A DNA stretch of 38,260 nucleotides, taken from the IMG/VR virus record IMGVR_UViG_3300042368_000238, positions 1 to 38,260 of that record; one strand, written 5' to 3'. The translations under genes and the position numbers were made by a program. Shown piece after piece: positions 5,523 to 38,260 of this stretch (positions within the stretch are counted from its first letter, which is position 1; every line of letters begins with the position of its first letter). Origin of the DNA: a virus. The notes under the pieces were generated by a model that did no database searches, was not told where the DNA came from, and saw only the letters and a list, made by a program, of their open reading frames with translations.

Positions 5523-5988
5523 ATTCTGCCGTTAGGGCTTGGGTGGCGTGCGTGGTGGGCGTGGTAGACGCGCGGGTCAATGCAGCCGGTTCATCCTGCA
5601 ATACTCGGCCTTCAATGACGCGAGATTCTGCCTCTTGCAACGCCGCAATGACGCTGATCTGCTGCTTGATATCAACCTGCACCTGTTGCTTCGCCACCCA
5701 GCCATGCACATGCTGAAGGAGCGAGAGCGCCGCTTTGCTATCGCCATTTCGCGCCGCTTCGCGCAACTGCCCCGCAGCCTCAGCTTCAGCGTCGGCACGC
5801 CCTTTAGCCTCCGCCATCTCGGCGAGCTGGTCCATCTGACGTAGCCGGCGGTACTCCGTCGGCAACAGCCCTGCCGCCAAGGCAAGGTTATCACCTTTCA
5901 GCCCGAGTGCCGCCGCGTCATAAATGGCCTGTAGCCGCGCCTCAGTGGCGTTCAACTGCCGGGGTGCGTGCGGAAGCGATTTGAACAT
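5503..5988 (-). CDS. terS: Terminase small subunit
   Basis: A 161-residue protein directly upstream of terL and overlapping it by 20 bases. Residues about 22-58 (ATEARLQAIY then GLKGDNLALAAGLLPTEYRR) look like the helix-turn-helix DNA-recognition part, and the middle is a long helical stretch (EMAEAKGRADAEAEAAGQLR), as expected for an oligomerising small terminase. LLQHVHGWVAKQQVQVDIKQ is a block I know from phage small terminases. There is no good ribosome site before the ATG. A candidate promoter ends 6 bases upstream, so the transcript may be leaderless. Confidence 0.85.
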   Translation of the reverse strand: MFKSLPHAPRQLNATEARLQAIYDAAALGLKGDNLALAAGLLPTEYRRLRQMDQLAEMAEAKGRADAEAEAAGQLREAARNGDSKAALSLLQHVHGWVAKQQVQVDIKQQISVIAALQEAESRVIEGRVLQDEPAALTRASTTPTTHATQALTAEYATSDI

Positions 5989-6068: not shown

Positions 6069-6248
6069 GTGCAACCCCTCTATAACAGGTACAGCCACCG
6101 CGCGGGCCGGGCCACCCCACAGTTGCAAATGATTCTCGTTCGCATTCAGCCTGGGCGCGGTGGGCAGCGTGGGCAATGTGGGCAACGGCTACGCGCCCCC
6201 CGACTGTTAGCACCGTGCGGCTAGCCGATCGCGTGCGAACACATCGAC

Positions 6249-6298
6249 TTGTGGGCAATGTGGGTCATTTGGTTTTGGATGACCCACATTGCCCACAA
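6249..6298. repeat. Perfect 20-bp inverted repeat with 10-base loop
   Basis: The arm TTGTGGGCAATGTGGGTCAT (6249-6268) is exactly the reverse complement of 6279-6298, with the loop TTGGTTTTGG between. Each arm is made of two of the 9-bp iteron words. There is no U-run after it in either direction, so it is not an intrinsic terminator. A cruciform or paired protein-binding site in an origin or operator is more likely. Confidence 0.9.
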
Positions 6299-6394
6299 AT
6301 CGAAGGCATGGGCGATTTGTGGGTCATGTGGGCAATGTGGTCACGAAAATTAAATCGCAGCGGCTCCAACGGAATGCGCGCCAGCCGCTACGGG

Positions 6395-6437
6395 CTGTAT
6401 GTTTATACAGTAGTATCTTTTTCTTAGCTTAAAGATA
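6395..6437. other. Two short palindromes in an AT-rich segment
   Basis: CTGTAT-GTTT-ATACAG (6395-6410) is a perfect 6-bp inverted repeat. Shortly after it TATCTTT (6414-6420) pairs with AAAGATA (6431-6437). The segment is clearly AT-richer than its surroundings and lies between the left and right groups of 9-bp repeats. It could be a second unwinding element or an operator. No coding sequence is seen here. Confidence 0.4.
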
Positions 6438-6571
6438 AAGAGATGACCCACAATGCCCACAATCCCATTCGCGCCCTATGTTTATAGGCACTTGCGCGTG
6501 GGCAATTCGTCCGCAAAACATGACCCACACCATTACCCACATTGCCCACACACGCCATTGTAAAAAAATGC

Positions 6572-6600
6572 TTGACAGCCTACGCGCGCGCGTCTACTCT
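6572..6600 (+). promoter_or_regulatory. Sigma70-type early promoter
   Basis: A perfect -35 TTGACA (6572-6577) is followed after 17 bases by TACTCT (6595-6600), which matches TATAAT at positions 1, 2 and 6. Transcription would start near 6607, ahead of the first early gene at 6634. The rightmost 9-bp repeats end about 20 bases upstream, so a protein bound to them would sit beside RNA polymerase. The -35 context GCTTGACAGCC resembles the palindrome in the divergent promoters near 15945. Confidence 0.7.
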
Positions 6601-9765: not shown

Positions 9766-9790
9766 GTGGCTATTTCCCGACGATAGATAG
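9671..9790 (+). CDS. Candidate small membrane peptide overlapping convergent gene ends
   Basis: A 39-residue frame from GTG 9671 to TAG 9790. The second half (VIYLLLTIAAAVLVEWLF) is a clear membrane segment preceded by a polar NSSPFDTINYRP and followed by acidic PDDR. It overlaps the 67-residue ORF in another frame and runs 21 bases into the end of the convergent primase-helicase gene. The ribosome site is weak. It is supported only by the composition, so it is a candidate. Confidence 0.4.
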   Translation: MTANSSPFDTINYRPNSVIYLLLTIAAAVLVEWLFPDDR

Positions 9791-12064
9791 CGCCGGAGCT
9801 TTATCTTCGGCCATGTGCCGCAATTCCGACTTGGTAAGGTTGGCGAATTGCGGGTGGCAGAAAACGTGCTTGCGCGTCGGCCACTCGCGGGAGTGCAACC
9901 GACCGCAGTCCACCCACCCCGCCTCGCGAAGCGCGTGCATGAGCGCCGGGGATACGACCTTGACGCCTGTAGGCGCCAGACCTTGCAGACGATCACAGAG
10001 GGCGAAGAAGGGCGAGCCGATGACGCCACGGGCAAAGTCGCCCTGACGCTGCCGAATCATCTCGACCAAGAACGACTCGGCCGTAGACATGGCCGATTCA
10101 ATCATAATCAACTTGGCCTCGGTCATGGGCGGCGCGGCGCCAGGGTTGAACGCCGACACGTCGCGGGCGTCGAGCCACGCAGCCACGGCCTCAAACCCGC
10201 CGGACTTATACCATGCCCAGATACGGGCGGCGTCGGCCTCGGGCAGACGCTCGGCCTCCGACCAGACAACGAACCACCGCCGGTCATCGGAGGGCAAACT
10301 GATGGCGGCGCGCTCGTTAGAGAAGGACAGTACGAACACGCGGTTAAGGGCATCATACGGGTGCAAGCCCTTGCGGTTCACGCTCAGAAGTTCAGGCGGC
10401 GCGGCGATGACAGGCTTCAGGCTGTTTTCAAGCGCCCGCCGGTCTTTAGCCTCGGCCTGCCGCAGCTCGTTGATGACGATGACCTCGGACTCTAGGGCAT
10501 AGCCCCACTGCGAGTTAAGTTCCTCGTTCTTGACGATTGCCACGTTGACGTGGGTATGGCCGCCGATAGACCACAGGAACGGCGCCCAGAGCGTGTCCTT
10601 ACCGCTGCCAGGGCGACCGGCGTGCAGGACGGCATGGTTGATTTTCTGGTTGGCGTGCTGGCGCTTGTAGGCCATGACGTTGAAGACGTGCTCGCGCTCA
10701 ACCGGGTCGGGGATCATGCGCTCGGCGTGCTCTAACCACACGGCCACGTCGCCGTCGCTAGCCGCCGGTCGCGCGTCGCGCCAACGGTTGCCGTAGACCA
10801 GGCCGTTGCGCGAGACAAGGATAGACTCGCCGGCGGCGAACGTGACGCCGACGAGCGAGTGAGCGCCCATGGCCTGCCGGTTCTCATCGAAGCAGACAGA
10901 GGCTTCGATGTTGCGGTTGGAGCGGATGCTGCGGCAGGGGATGTGGCGGAACAGGGCGTTGAACGTCTGCCGGCTGATTTCGCGGCGATCCACCATGTCA
11001 AAGTAGCTGTCATCATCTTGGATATAAGCAAAACGCTCATACCATTGCGCCCGTTCGATGCGCCCCAGTTCGCGGCGCTCGACCTCCTCAATGACCTTGG
11101 CGGCCTCGTCGGGGAACTCCTCGGTGGGGGTGATTCTGGCCAAAGCGGACTCCATCTTTTTTGCGAGCAGGTCATCCCGCAGGCCGTAGCCCGTCTTGGG
11201 GCCGCCTTCGGCTTCAACCCACCGCAGGAACGCCTCGCTGTTCCAGTCGCCACAATGGCCGTGGAAGCAGGTGTAGCTACGCGTAAGGGGATTGTAGCGC
11301 CCGCCGGGGTCGCCCGTCGTGTGCTCGGCGTGGTTAGGGCAGACAACGCCGTACCAGCCCTCGCCGTTGGCCTTATCGAGCAGTAGCCCGCGCTCGCGGA
11401 CCCACTCTAGCACCGTGTCGAGGCCATCGTCCTCAAGGTATACGCCGCGTATATACGCCGTGTCTACAGCGCCGGGGGTGACGTTAAACGCTTGACAAAT
11501 CTGCGCAAGCGTGTACTCGCGCTCGGGGTAAAACTCGGCTAGGATGGCGGCAAAGTTGTTGCGGCCTTCCTTGAGGTTAACACTACCCTCAATGCGGAAG
11601 TTACGTACGGGGTTGATTGCACCGGGGTCGGTATAACCCGCATCGGCGATGGCCTTGATGGCGGCCGAGAACTCGCCCTTGGTCGGCTGATCGTCTAGGC
11701 CGAACGTGTAGCCCCACTGGTAGTTGCCGGGGCTCGTCTCTAGCTTCCACGTCGGTTCCAGCGGCGGTACCTTGGACTTGGTGCCGATGTCATCCAGCAC
11801 CATGAACGCCACGCGCTCGCAGTTGGCCGCAGAGGCCGAGAGGCCATCCGCCATGCGGTCAACGATGAAGCAGCCCGTGTTGGCGTACCACGCCCCATCA
11901 GGCCGGCGTTGGTAAGTGTCGAACAGGGCGGGCGGCCAGGTGTATTTCGGCGTCCCGTCGTTATGCGTCAGATGCTCGCCCTTTCGGACGATTGGCTTCT
12001 GACGGACGAACAAAATGGTTTCCCCTTCGGGGGCGATATTGTTAATATAGTCGGCGAATCTCAT
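9770..12064 (-). CDS. Primase-helicase (NrS-1/VirE-like, DUF5906-type helicase)
   Basis: A 764-residue replication protein. The N-terminal part resembles an archaeo-eukaryotic-type primase-polymerase: FMVLDD (about residues 87-92), YQWGYTF, and FRIEGSVNLK (about 156-165). A Cys/His cluster follows (VCPNHAEH ... TCFHGHC, about 241-271), probably zinc-binding. The C-terminal superfamily 3-type helicase has Walker A AGRPGSGKDT (about 482-491), Walker B VIVINE and SNERAAISLPSDDRRW. It would unwind and prime DNA for the family A polymerase upstream. The ATG at 12064 has GGAG 9 bases upstream. An ATG at 12073 sits directly after the same GGAG and is less likely. Confidence 0.88.
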   Translation of the reverse strand: MRFADYINNIAPEGETILFVRQKPIVRKGEHLTHNDGTPKYTWPPALFDTYQRRPDGAWYANTGCFIVDRMADGLSASAANCERVAFMVLDDIGTKSKVPPLEPTWKLETSPGNYQWGYTFGLDDQPTKGEFSAAIKAIADAGYTDPGAINPVRNFRIEGSVNLKEGRNNFAAILAEFYPEREYTLAQICQAFNVTPGAVDTAYIRGVYLEDDGLDTVLEWVRERGLLLDKANGEGWYGVVCPNHAEHTTGDPGGRYNPLTRSYTCFHGHCGDWNSEAFLRWVEAEGGPKTGYGLRDDLLAKKMESALARITPTEEFPDEAAKVIEEVERRELGRIERAQWYERFAYIQDDDSYFDMVDRREISRQTFNALFRHIPCRSIRSNRNIEASVCFDENRQAMGAHSLVGVTFAAGESILVSRNGLVYGNRWRDARPAASDGDVAVWLEHAERMIPDPVEREHVFNVMAYKRQHANQKINHAVLHAGRPGSGKDTLWAPFLWSIGGHTHVNVAIVKNEELNSQWGYALESEVIVINELRQAEAKDRRALENSLKPVIAAPPELLSVNRKGLHPYDALNRVFVLSFSNERAAISLPSDDRRWFVVWSEAERLPEADAARIWAWYKSGGFEAVAAWLDARDVSAFNPGAAPPMTEAKLIMIESAMSTAESFLVEMIRQRQGDFARGVIGSPFFALCDRLQGLAPTGVKVVSPALMHALREAGWVDCGRLHSREWPTRKHVFCHPQFANLTKSELRHMAEDKAPALSIVGK

Positions 12065-12087
12065 CGTAGACATCTCCAGTCTTCGTT

Positions 12088-12116
12088 AGCCCGGCCTAAC
12101 CCACCGGGCTTTTTTT
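12088..12116 (+). terminator. Intrinsic terminator facing right, antisense to the replication unit
   Basis: AGCCCGG (12088-12094) pairs with CCGGGCT (12104-12110) and is followed directly by six more T on the plus strand, a textbook rho-independent terminator for rightward transcription. The surrounding genes are on the minus strand, where the same hairpin is preceded by the A-run and should not terminate. It sits between the polymerase stop and the primase-helicase start. It could stop read-through from the early unit that runs antisense through 9770-12064. Confidence 0.75.
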
Positions 12117-14076
12117 AGCCCTTACCGTACCGCGCCATGACCTTGACTTCGGCCTTGAGCGGAAACCCCGCAGCCCAGTCAGGCGCCGTACACATAACCG
12201 TATTCAACACCTCGGCGACCGCCTCGGCGGCTTCGTCGGCGCACTCAATGACGATTTCGTCATGGATGTGCAGCACCGTACGCAGCCCCTGACGGTCGAG
12301 CTCACGCAGGCTATGCCTTAGCAGATCGTTGGCGGTCGCCTGTGTGATGTTCTCGCAAGCCAAACCCTTCCACAGCCGCGCGCGCGGCCATTCGGTCGCA
12401 TCCTGCGCAGGCTTCCAGGCGGCTTTGAGGTAACTCACCCCGTCCGACTCCAGACGGGCGAACGGATAACATAGCACGCGGCCTGACGGCAGGGCATACC
12501 AAAGATGCTGCCCGTCGTACATGTACGCCACGCGGCCCGCTCGTATTTCATGGTTGACATTTCGCATGGCGCGGGTGTAGGCGTCCTCCAGCTTCTGCCA
12601 GTAACGCACCGCCCAAGGGTTCGCCCGGCGCCATCGGTCGACGATACGCTGCGCCTCGGCCTCGGGCATACTCAGGCCGTAGGCTCGGCCCATGGCGCTG
12701 AACGCTCCGACGCCACCCGCGAAGCCAAGCGAGAGGATGGCGACCTTGCCGATCTGGCGCTGCTCGTCGTTGACCGCCTCCGGCGCCAGGCCATAGATGC
12801 CGCCGGCCTCGCGCTTGTAGATGTCGCCACCTTGGCGGAAGGCGTCCAACACGTCCTCGGCGAGTCGGTCGGCGGACAGCCACGCGGTCGCACGGGCCTC
12901 TATCGCTGCCCAATCGGCCACGACGAAAATGTTACCTCGGGCGGGGACAAGGGCTGGGCGCAACATTCCTTTAAGAACGTCTGTAACGCGGCGACCGAAC
13001 TCGGGCACGATACTGTGACCGCGCACCAGGGCATGTCTAACCGCGTCGGGCTGTTTGACGCACTTACGCGTAAAGTTATGGACTTGCGCGCCGTAGCTTG
13101 AAGCACGCCCGGTGGCACTTCCACCAGCAAATATAAAGGCTCCACGGACACGAGCGTCCTCCACGTCGGCTAGCTGCTTCAGCCGGTTGAACTTGGCTAC
13201 CGACGAGGCCCAAAGGTCATCGGCGCATTGGATTACATCCGCCACGTCGGGCGGCACCTCATCGGCGTTGTCCATGGCAAGCAGGTTGGCTCGCACGGTC
13301 TTGTCAATACTAAACTTCTTTTCGCCGTCCTTGTGGACGGTCATCAGGCGCTTGGCCTCGGGCCCGACGCGCTCCAGCACCCACTCGCGCATCTTAGGCG
13401 AGCGGACGGTCGTTATCGCGCCCTGCGTAACCTCGGCCACGATCCGCTCAATATCCTGCAGCTCGACCTCAGCGTAGCGCACGGCGGCCTCGCAGAGCGG
13501 CACGTCCACCATGACGCCGGCGTCGTTGATGCGCTCGTTGACGTGGTAATCGGCCAGCTCGGTGTCCGACAGGTCGCGCATGGCCTTGCTAATCTCGCGC
13601 ATGGCGCGCACGTCCTGCTCGCAGTAGGCGACCATCTCGGCCATCAGCTCAGGGTCGGTGTTGAACGTCCCGTCAGCGCGGGGGATGGACAACTGCCGGA
13701 TAAGCTGCGCGCCTCGGTAGTCCTTCTTCATCTTGGACGACAGGGCACGGCCGATGTCCTCAAGGCTACCAGGCAGGCAGTTGGCCCGCGCCTGAGCGGC
13801 CGTGCAGTAGAACTGCGACAAGGCGAACGGCATGTCAAGGACATACCAGAAGATAAGCCGCTCAAAGGCAGCGTTGTGCGCGCGTATCTGGCCCTTGAAG
13901 TTAGCCACGCGCTCGGGAAACGGGTGCTTCGGCAACCACGTCTCGACCTCGCCATCGTCGAAGGCGTAGGACATGCACAGCACCTCAGTGCTCGCGTCCA
14001 AGGCGTAGTTGTACGCACCCGCCGCCGGTAGGTCGCACCGGCTACGGGTTTCAAAGTCAAGCCAAAGTATTGCCAT
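12115..14076 (-). CDS. Family A DNA polymerase with 3'-5' exonuclease
   Basis: A 653-residue replicative polymerase from the ATG at 14076 (an in-frame ATG at 14112 would add 12 residues encoded by a GC hairpin). Numbered from 14112, the proofreading domain has LDFET (D19, E21), HNAAFE (80-84) and YCEQD (Y163, D167), a full DEDDy set. The polymerase domain has motif A VVADWAAIEAR (398-407, D400), motif B RQIGKVAILSLGFAGG (452-467) and motif C HIHDE (D618). It is in the Pol I class common in phages that also encode Cas4-like, VRR-NUC and SNF2 proteins. A host thioredoxin-binding insert like that of T7 is not evident. Confidence 0.96.
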   Translation of the reverse strand: MAILWLDFETRSRCDLPAAGAYNYALDASTEVLCMSYAFDDGEVETWLPKHPFPERVANFKGQIRAHNAAFERLIFWYVLDMPFALSQFYCTAAQARANCLPGSLEDIGRALSSKMKKDYRGAQLIRQLSIPRADGTFNTDPELMAEMVAYCEQDVRAMREISKAMRDLSDTELADYHVNERINDAGVMVDVPLCEAAVRYAEVELQDIERIVAEVTQGAITTVRSPKMREWVLERVGPEAKRLMTVHKDGEKKFSIDKTVRANLLAMDNADEVPPDVADVIQCADDLWASSVAKFNRLKQLADVEDARVRGAFIFAGGSATGRASSYGAQVHNFTRKCVKQPDAVRHALVRGHSIVPEFGRRVTDVLKGMLRPALVPARGNIFVVADWAAIEARATAWLSADRLAEDVLDAFRQGGDIYKREAGGIYGLAPEAVNDEQRQIGKVAILSLGFAGGVGAFSAMGRAYGLSMPEAEAQRIVDRWRRANPWAVRYWQKLEDAYTRAMRNVNHEIRAGRVAYMYDGQHLWYALPSGRVLCYPFARLESDGVSYLKAAWKPAQDATEWPRARLWKGLACENITQATANDLLRHSLRELDRQGLRTVLHIHDEIVIECADEAAEAVAEVLNTVMCTAPDWAAGFPLKAEVKVMARYGKG

Positions 14077-14085
14077 CGAAGAATC

Positions 14086-14105
14086 GGGGGCCGTTGCCGG
14101 CCCCC
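14086..14105 (-). promoter_or_regulatory. Perfect 8-bp GC hairpin with GCAA loop upstream of polymerase
   Basis: On the minus strand GGGGGCCG-GCAA-CGGCCCCC forms an uninterrupted 8-bp stem closed by a GNRA tetraloop. It lies 9 bases upstream of the ATG at 14076 and just after the ATG at 14112, so it separates the two possible polymerase starts. There is no U-run after it. It may lower translation or read-through of the polymerase gene, or stabilise the upstream mRNA. Confidence 0.6.
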
Positions 14106-14111
14106 GCTCCA

Positions 14112-14756
14112 TTACGCAACGCGACGCCGACGAGCCGCAGCAGCCGGCGGAGGCGTGTCATCGCCCTCCGGTGCCGAGGGAGCCTCGCCGTCCATGGACA
14201 CCCACTCGACGATCTCAAAGACCGGCGTGTAGATGCGACCGTAGGACTTGTGCTGGTAGTGTTCCTTCTTCAGAACCACCACCGGCACGGGCTTGCTCTG
14301 GTCACGCTCGACCTGGGCTGCGATGGCCGCCGCCAAGGTCTGCACGGCACGCTTGCCGCCCACGGACGTAGTGCTGTAGCGAGCCTCAAGGCCCGCGTCC
14401 TCGCCCGTGATGCACTTCAAGCTCATGCCAACCTGAGTCTCCCACCCCTTCTTGCTCTGCGGGGGCGCGGGCTCAAGTTCCGGCAGCGGCTGCGACACCG
14501 ACACCATCTTCTCGCCGAGCACCTCGCCGTCGCCCCACGCGATAAAGCCGTGGACGAACGAGAAGGGATTGACTGCCCACCGGCTGTTTTCCTCGGCCTC
14601 GGTTTGATCCGCGCCGAAGACCCAGTGGCCCGTCTTATCCATCTTGAGGATAGCCGACCCGACCGGGCCGACCTCCACTTCGATGTTACGCAGAGCCGTG
14701 GACAGGGAAGTGACAGCGGGCAGACCCGCCTTGCTGAACGCAGTGATATTCGACAT
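14112..14756 (-). CDS. Conserved replication-module protein, possible ssDNA-binding protein
   Basis: A 214-residue protein starting MSNITAFSKAGLPAVTSLST. It contains ALRNIEVEVGPVG, then MDKTGHWVFGADQ, INPFSFVHGFIAWGDGEVLG-like sequence and KKGWETQVGMSLKC, all blocks I recognise from an uncharacterised family that sits between Cas4-like and polymerase genes in many phages. The position, size and beta-rich character suit an ssDNA-binding protein, as the DUF2815 family does at the same place elsewhere. The tail is Pro/Ala-rich and basic (RRRRVA) and lacks the acidic tip of bacterial SSB. The function is inferred from context. Confidence 0.75.
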   Translation of the reverse strand: MSNITAFSKAGLPAVTSLSTALRNIEVEVGPVGSAILKMDKTGHWVFGADQTEAEENSRWAVNPFSFVHGFIAWGDGEVLGEKMVSVSQPLPELEPAPPQSKKGWETQVGMSLKCITGEDAGLEARYSTTSVGGKRAVQTLAAAIAAQVERDQSKPVPVVVLKKEHYQHKSYGRIYTPVFEIVEWVSMDGEAPSAPEGDDTPPPAAAARRRRVA

Positions 14757-37209: not shown

Positions 37210-38260
37210 GCCGTGAGTGCCTGTAAGGTGGTGTCGGCGAGGCGGGTGGGGTAGTAGGCGATGCGGCGGATGGTGCCGTTTACATTGTTTGCGCCCGTTG
37301 ACCGCGACCCAATGTTAAGTTGCGTTAAACCTGCCGGAATTGTGGCGCTTGTGTCTTGTGTCCCCAATAAACCATTCACGCTTTGCTGGATGCTATTCAA
37401 TATATACGCTCCAGCCGCTTTTCTGACAGACCCTAGCGTAACGGCTACACCCGGAGAGGCTACTGCTGTTCCACTATCAGATACAACAAATTGGCTAATG
37501 GTTCCAAGTGATGAAGTTGATTGTCTAATGTAATTAGTAAGCGAATTGCTATTTATGTCTGCAAAAACATACGCAACAGCAAAATCTGGCGTATTTGCTT
37601 CCACATACAAAGTCCCCTCCACCGCGTTGTACCACGACGAGAAGTTAGTCCCAGTCATGCTCGCTGCATCCGCGTTGCGCGTGAGGGCGGTGGTGGTGGT
37701 GGGGATGTAGGAGGTAGCAAAGGCTCCGGCTTCGAGTTGAGCGCCCCAGATGAAAATGCCAGAGGTGCCGTCGCCTGTGTAGCTAGTTGTTGATGCACCT
37801 TCAATTAAACGCAAAGTAAAGGTGCTAGTCGCAGACGCAGTAGCTGTTTGTGTAATAGAACAACGATACCAACCGTTGCCTACATTGGTAATTGAAGCAA
37901 CAGTTCCTGTGAGTGCTATTGTTGCTGTCCCGGCAGACAAATCAAAAACAGCGGAAAAAGCAAAACCAAACGCACCAGTTGGGAAATAAATTCTCAGGTT
38001 TCGCCCTGCTTGTTTGGCATAAATAGAAAGTGTGTACGCCGTTCCACTTGTAAATGAAGCAGAAAATGTCATGTCGTGCGTATTGGTCGCCGTATCTTCA
38101 ACCAGCTTGTCTGCGTCTTGCGTTCCATCTGGCGATGTTGTTGCATCAGCAGTTATGGACGAGCGGGTTTTTGTCCAAACAGCATTATCAAACTGCTCAG
38201 AATACGTCAGCAGGTTGGTTCTCTGCTCCTCAATGAGCAAGCCCTGCGGCGCAAGCGTCG
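37206..38260 (-). CDS. Tail protein with LamG-like domain, C-terminal part
   Basis: This is the main part of the gene that begins at 370. The segment from 38122 down to 37206 completes the 428-residue protein, and 38123-38260 duplicates the overlap. After LLIEEQRTNLLTYSEQFDNA come two beta-sandwich regions (GTAYTLSIYAKQAGRN, GNGWYRCSITQTAT, FIWGAQLEAGAFATSYIPTT) and a final LamG-like part (GSRSTGANNVNGTIRRIAYY). This arrangement is common in phage tail proteins that bind sugars. The AT/GC content shifts several times along the gene, suggesting a mosaic origin. Confidence 0.85.
   Translation of the reverse strand, partial: TLAPQGLLIEEQRTNLLTYSEQFDNAVWTKTRSSITADATTSPDGTQDADKLVEDTATNTHDMTFSASFTSGTAYTLSIYAKQAGRNLRIYFPTGAFGFAFSAVFDLSAGTATIALTGTVASITNVGNGWYRCSITQTATASATSTFTLRLIEGASTTSYTGDGTSGIFIWGAQLEAGAFATSYIPTTTTALTRNADAASMTGTNFSSWYNAVEGTLYVEANTPDFAVAYVFADINSNSLTNYIRQSTSSLGTISQFVVSDSGTAVASPGVAVTLGSVRKAAGAYILNSIQQSVNGLLGTQDTSATIPAGLTQLNIGSRSTGANNVNGTIRRIAYYPTRLADTTLQALTA
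38123..38260. repeat. Right copy of 138-bp terminal redundancy
   Basis: It matches 1-138 with three differences: 38249 G for 127 C, 38250 C for 128 T and 38253 A for 131 G. Read as codons on the minus strand, two changes are silent (Leu, Ala) and one swaps Ala for Pro. This fits true sequence variants in the source population. Confidence 0.9.

Follow-up and report, generated by a model that had tools for sequence, protein, structure and literature searches.

The window analysed here is the whole of the IMG/VR record IMGVR_UViG_3300042368_000238, a stretch of 38,260 bases from a freshwater tailed phage. TerS, TerL and a P22-type portal protein form one block that is transcribed leftwards from position 5988, and a short rightward block, encoding a clamp-like protein and small proteins, starts at about 6634. 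Further on, the minus strand carries a DUF5906 primase-helicase (9770-12073), followed by a PolA-family polymerase (12115-14112). Between the divergent blocks sits an array of short repeats (6159-6550), delimited by repeat and motif searches and predicted to be the replication origin. The primase-helicase, a DUF5906/D5-like protein of 767 residues and the predicted initiator, was recognised by profile and fold matches: it contains an SF3-type helicase core (PF19263 DUF5906 match and fold search), and its fold matches include the C-terminal region of the NrS-1 primase-polymerase (6k9c, the top-ranking match for the helicase part, E 4e-13), poxvirus D5/E5 and SaPI5 PriRep1 (7ola). Residues 640-767 (9773-10156, minus strand) are modelled by AlphaFold2 as a C-terminal winged-helix domain, with a mean pLDDT of 84 and values above 90 across the wing. 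The two ends of the record (1-138 and 38123-38260) have 138 bases in common with 3 mismatches, either as a terminal repeat that is not perfect or because a module recurs within one gene; circularity or permutation of the record is possible. Relatives occur in Rhodoferax and other freshwater MAGs, where they may be contamination.

Fourteen copies of the 9-bp word TGTGGG(CA/TC)A, with at most one mismatch and on both strands, lie within 6168-6550, mostly as tandem pairs 9 bp apart, in agreement with the many copies in tandem runs noted in a preliminary description of this DNA. The density is about 33 words per kb in the array vs. 0.5 per kb elsewhere (19 copies in the other 37.8 kb). All 11 exact copies of TGTGGG[CT][AC]A in the window fall inside the array; 200 dinucleotide shuffles gave a mean total of 1.0 and a maximum of 2 in any 420 bp. 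Phasing of the 9-mers as TGTGGGCAA/TGTGGGTCA fits better than the phasing used earlier. From left to right, the array comprises the pair CGTGGGCAA-TGTGGGCAA on the plus strand (6168-6185); the pair TGTGGGCAA-TGTGGGTCA on the plus strand (6250-6267) and again on the minus strand (6280-6297), forming the left and right arms of a 20-bp inverted repeat; the pair TGTGGGTCA-TGTGGGCAA on the plus strand (6318-6335), left of an AT-rich core; the core itself (6395-6444), a predicted unwinding element; the pair TGTGGGCAT-TGTGGGTCA on the minus strand (6444-6461), at the right border of the core; a single degenerate CGTGGGCAA on the plus strand (6497-6505); TGTGGGTCA on the minus strand (6521-6529); and the pair TGTGGGCAA-TGTGGGTAA, also on the minus strand (6533-6550). 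The core is 76% AT over 6400-6444 and starts with the palindrome CTGTAT-N4-ATACAG (6395-6410), which several relatives have at the same place (a strict pattern recovers it in 16 of 92 arrays).

The order of the words, ++ / ++ -- / ++ / AT core / -- / (+) / - --, is mostly directed towards the AT-rich core, and replaces the initial picture of direct words on the left and inverted ones on the right. The exact 20-bp arms, TTGTGGGCAATGTGGGTCAT at 6249-6268 and ATGACCCACATTGCCCACAA at 6279-6298, are present as described (25 nt at 96% as an imperfect repeat), but other members of the group have 36-bp-spaced direct pairs there instead, so that the perfect inverted repeat, first taken as the centrepiece, is one accessory iteron pair, and the conserved centre is the AT-rich core at about 6395-6444. 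The early promoter thought to lie beside the array is weak: a perfect TTGACA stands at 6572-6577, but the -10 element reads TACTCT and a consensus scan finds no promoter. Cumulative GC skew, suggested as a check, has no clear switch at the array.

Related loci were collected by a scan seeded with the primase (80 loci, 61-100% identical) and by a second scan seeded with the 50%-identical relative MW202483 (80 more loci). Many of these loci are contig fragments, and word registers were assigned by pattern, two of them being corrected by hand. In a 15-mer search of viral contigs, the single-site matches listed were about as numerous as expected by chance for the size of the collection, and therefore only clustered matches were used. 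Relatives that are at least 78% identical have these words, with almost constant spacing, in all contigs that extend to the array; in those that are 61-75% identical the word is often different, with unchanged anatomy. Where 5.5 kb of sequence downstream of the primase was available (128 non-redundant loci), a two-strand array of at least six copies was found downstream of the primase gene in 106 loci (none was called in the other 22), as compared with 0 of 45 upstream controls. The 9-mer is thus neither equally common elsewhere in the genome nor missing from close relatives at the same place, the two outcomes that the preliminary description had named as telling against its reading. When repeats were called blind, the 110 non-redundant full-length primases fell into 11 word classes, and between lineages the word switches in concert within each genome (TTTGGGTCA, TGTGGACAA, TGTAGTCAT, TATTGGCAA and others). 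The most AT-rich 45 bp of each array has a median AT content of 80% (n = 96 arrays), the loci as a whole 45%; roughly 80% of the words are oriented towards this core, 341 of 421 on its left and 491 of 626 on its right. As in iteron origins, the short repeats are confined to one intergenic locus that is conserved in relatives, and an AT-rich region lies next to or between them, both in the window and in relatives.

Other repeats were seen in the same regions. A G-run element (GGGGGTAGGGCC and variants) occupies the interval from the array to TerS: a strict pattern detects it in 43 of 92 arrays, with zero occurrences in the background sequence scanned; in the window it is the degenerate GGGGTGGCCCGGCCC (6104-6118, minus strand), and in relatives such as L043, L051, L058 and L070 it is found about 400-590 bp past the array call. 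In locus L079, the tandem spacing of the TGTAGTCAT class is sometimes 8 bp rather than 9. In one subclade (loci L090, L159, L174, L181 and L275), the TGTGGG array is accompanied by repeated GTTAGTGAGCACTAAC-type palindromes that may form a second binding site; the GTTAGTG palindromes of L090, L159, L174 and L181 were considered as words and rejected, inspection of L090 having revealed a second repeat beside the TGTGGG array. Dense TGTTTATGTAAACA-type repeats are found near a 9-bp TGTTGGTAG array in L201 (MW202483, 28200-28620) and in its relatives L202 and L203. In the Vibrio phage 1.185.O record (L290, 28101-28318), CRISPR-like spacers are annotated within a coding gene, probably an annotation artefact.

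The array adjoins TerS and TerL, the TerS gene starting about 170 bp to its left, a position that would suit a pac/cos site for DNA packaging, with the neighbouring small terminase subunit as its binding protein. However, when the primase is kept, the same words stand beside unrelated TerS/TerL: TGTGGG-type arrays next to a different TerS/TerL set occur in L100, L140, L146, L160 and L182, as well as in L113, L118 and L148, with a primase of this family where the contig reaches and, in L100, L140 and L146, with PolA likewise. The retention of the array with the primase beside a different terminase speaks against a packaging site, TerS divergence does not track the word, and we regard this explanation as very unlikely.

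Primase pairs with different words were compared with same-word pairs at matched overall distance. The different-word pairs show excess divergence in one stretch of the primase alone, residues 713-752, where z is 4.2 and the excess is positive in each of the six distance bins. Its maximum is 0.121 in the primase vs. 0.058 in PolA, 0.062 in DUF2800, 0.039 in the nucleotidyltransferase, 0.031 in TerS and 0.027 in TerL, and none of these other proteins has a peak of primase size. In AlphaFold2 models (L201 left out), residues 713-752 correspond to the wing of the C-terminal winged helix, with strands at 721-728 and 731-739 and R729 at the tip; on the divergence tests and the model, the wing hairpin (residues 721-739; 9857-9913, minus strand) is the predicted word-reading segment. 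The combination of a variable wing with R729 at its tip and a preceding helix, 708-717, that is nearly invariant across word classes suggests wing-based reading, comparable to that of RFX1-type winged helices, in which the wing and not the recognition helix reads the bases (PMC4333399). The likeness to RFX1 is a functional and structural analogy only, a fold search with the isolated winged helix having given no significant match. The preliminary description had left the binding protein open, and on the present evidence the probable binder is the winged helix at the C-terminus of the primase-helicase.

These results also bear on two further explanations. Lying between divergent units and adjoining a possible promoter, the array could be an operator for an early regulator of the early and late units, without origin function. 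Nevertheless, it persists while the early-region genes vary widely or are wholly replaced, the covarying protein is the primase-helicase and not a classical regulator, and inward-facing words around an AT-rich core are a typical origin layout; such an operator is unlikely. The 9-bp length and the TGTGG start of the words, together with the small Bac_DnaA_C protein encoded by L201, would agree with a DnaA-type origin, its words being diverged DnaA boxes (TGTGNATAA) for the host DnaA or a phage DnaA-domain protein. Yet no DnaA-domain match was found among the window proteins scanned, many word classes do not resemble the DnaA box, and the words track the primase wing, and we consider this origin type extremely unlikely.

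The link between wing and word can be followed to single residues. R729, whose codon in the window (9887-9889, minus strand) is flanked by those of H727 and P732, pairs with G at word position 2, and Gly, Ala, Ser, His or Lys at this column with T or A. Concordance is found in 106 of 108 rows; the exceptions, L201 and L202, were scored as G2 without Arg; in both, the wing is diverged and the true word uncertain. L249, in which the array was called at a wrong place, and L236 were removed from the set; for L227 and L242, a disagreement with the rule led to inspection of the sequence and to a manual shift of register to TGTTAGTCA, made before the tree test. On a tree built from primase residues 1-690 only, i.e. 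without the winged-helix domain, each trait changes 11 times, and in all 11 phylogenetically independent pairs differing in G2, column 729 differs and separates them cleanly, the sole one of 766 columns to do so. With well-supported branches only, eight to nine of nine pairs agree and none is opposite (sign test p 0.004-0.008). The rule was recorded before two further scans, from which test primases less than 97% identical to any earlier one were taken. It held in 40 of 40 fresh loci with clear arrays: word position 2 was G in all 19 loci with Arg and another base in all 21 without it (Fisher p 8e-12; one of the 21, L340, rests on a probably spurious word call). A looser first pass on fresh loci had given 22/22 and 34/35; as the first blind caller sometimes took the reverse strand, the word pattern was tightened for the 40-locus result. 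Two other regularities, H/K727 with G4 (32/32; M727 with non-G4, 9/9) and the occurrence of A6 only with D/E732 (17/17), are less rigorous because they were tabulated post hoc. That one primase residue predicts one letter of the word in more than 100 related phages indicates that origin and enzyme appear to change together.

A possible route for such changes is provided by L081 and L079, which share about 94% DNA identity up to about primase codon 722 and again beyond the array, through TerS. The intervening 2.9 kb, comprising the primase C-terminus, the early genes and the array, is unrelated, L079 having the wing MSRDYTA and the word TGTAGTCAT and L081 the wing ASAEYMN and the word TATTGGCAA. 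Compared with L083, too, L081 has this block replaced inside 94%-identical flanks. A single replacement of wing, early genes and array would explain the difference between L081 and L079. We give about even odds to the more general proposal that these phages have many mutually distinct origin specificities and that a lineage can switch between them by one recombination event, acquiring a cassette of wing codons, early genes and matching array.

Phage P4 alpha combines primase and SF3 helicase in one protein, with a C-terminal origin-binding winged helix and short iterons, and P4 has separate ori and crr. We propose that the primase-helicase and array of the window may work like P4 alpha with its ori and SaPI Rep with its ori. 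They do not place themselves in the P4 alpha family sensu stricto: the isolated C-terminal domain gave no significant sequence or fold match to solved structures, solved origin-binding domains included. The nearest experimental precedent is the binding of iterons by the C-terminal domains of SaPI Rep and SCCmec Cch2 (PMC7581432). The likeness extends to a self-loading initiator helicase with an origin downstream of its gene (PMC6092414, PMC7581432) and to the layout of PICI origins, in which an AT-rich region lies between two sets of iterons (PMC6092414). Differently from these systems, we are dealing here with tailed phages that have their own PolA, with 9-bp words, with a specificity mapped to the wing and with an array 1-5 kb downstream, beyond other genes. 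The satellite gene set of PICI/SaPI (stl/xis/int, helper dependence) was not found, the window having its own portal, TerL and PolA, and no integrase is present among the window proteins scanned. NrS-1 is reported to use a single 8-nt recognition sequence in two copies per genome and no iteron array (PMC7102993). Geminivirus Rep/iteron pairs also diversify among close relatives (PMC12548392), although these Reps are unrelated rolling-circle initiators of plant ssDNA viruses.

Taken together, we estimate a probability of roughly 85% that the array is the replication origin of the phage, its iterons being bound by the phage's own D5/SF3 primase-helicase via the wing. The iteron-like origin proposed in the preliminary description thus gains strong support, at the level of sequence, from the conserved position, the AT-rich core, the primase-helicase linkage and the residue-base covariation. 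The array, its conservation, the core, the linkage and the covariation are directly visible; from them we infer word binding, core melting, double-hexamer loading, PolA priming and initiation itself. Subunits of the primase-helicase would bind the 9-bp words through the C-terminal winged helix, the wing selecting bases by the pairings R729-G2, H/K727-G4 and D/E732-A6. As the words flank the AT-rich core and mostly face inward, a set of subunits, plausibly a hexamer, would assemble on either side of it, and the two opposed sets would melt the core (about 6395-6444) and load on the single strands, after which the primase-helicase would prime synthesis for the phage PolA-family polymerase. Compatible with this origin is a dual element, in which the primase-helicase would also repress early or late promoters through an autoregulatory operator. 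Words lie close to the promoters on both sides, and comparable double use is plausible in iteron systems; we view this addition as possible, if rather doubtful.

The origins of most uncultured phages are unknown, and here origin, likely initiator and specificity residue can be read in the sequence, the natural variation of word and wing amounting to a large ready-made mutagenesis set. Two questions can now be put to the test, namely how an origin is located by D5-type primase-helicases and why the origin words of viruses diversify among close relatives. If the cassette proposal is true, these phages would form natural 'incompatibility groups' with a wing-to-base recognition code readable from sequence, and their diversity would perhaps be maintained by competition among co-infecting phages or by origin-copying satellites.
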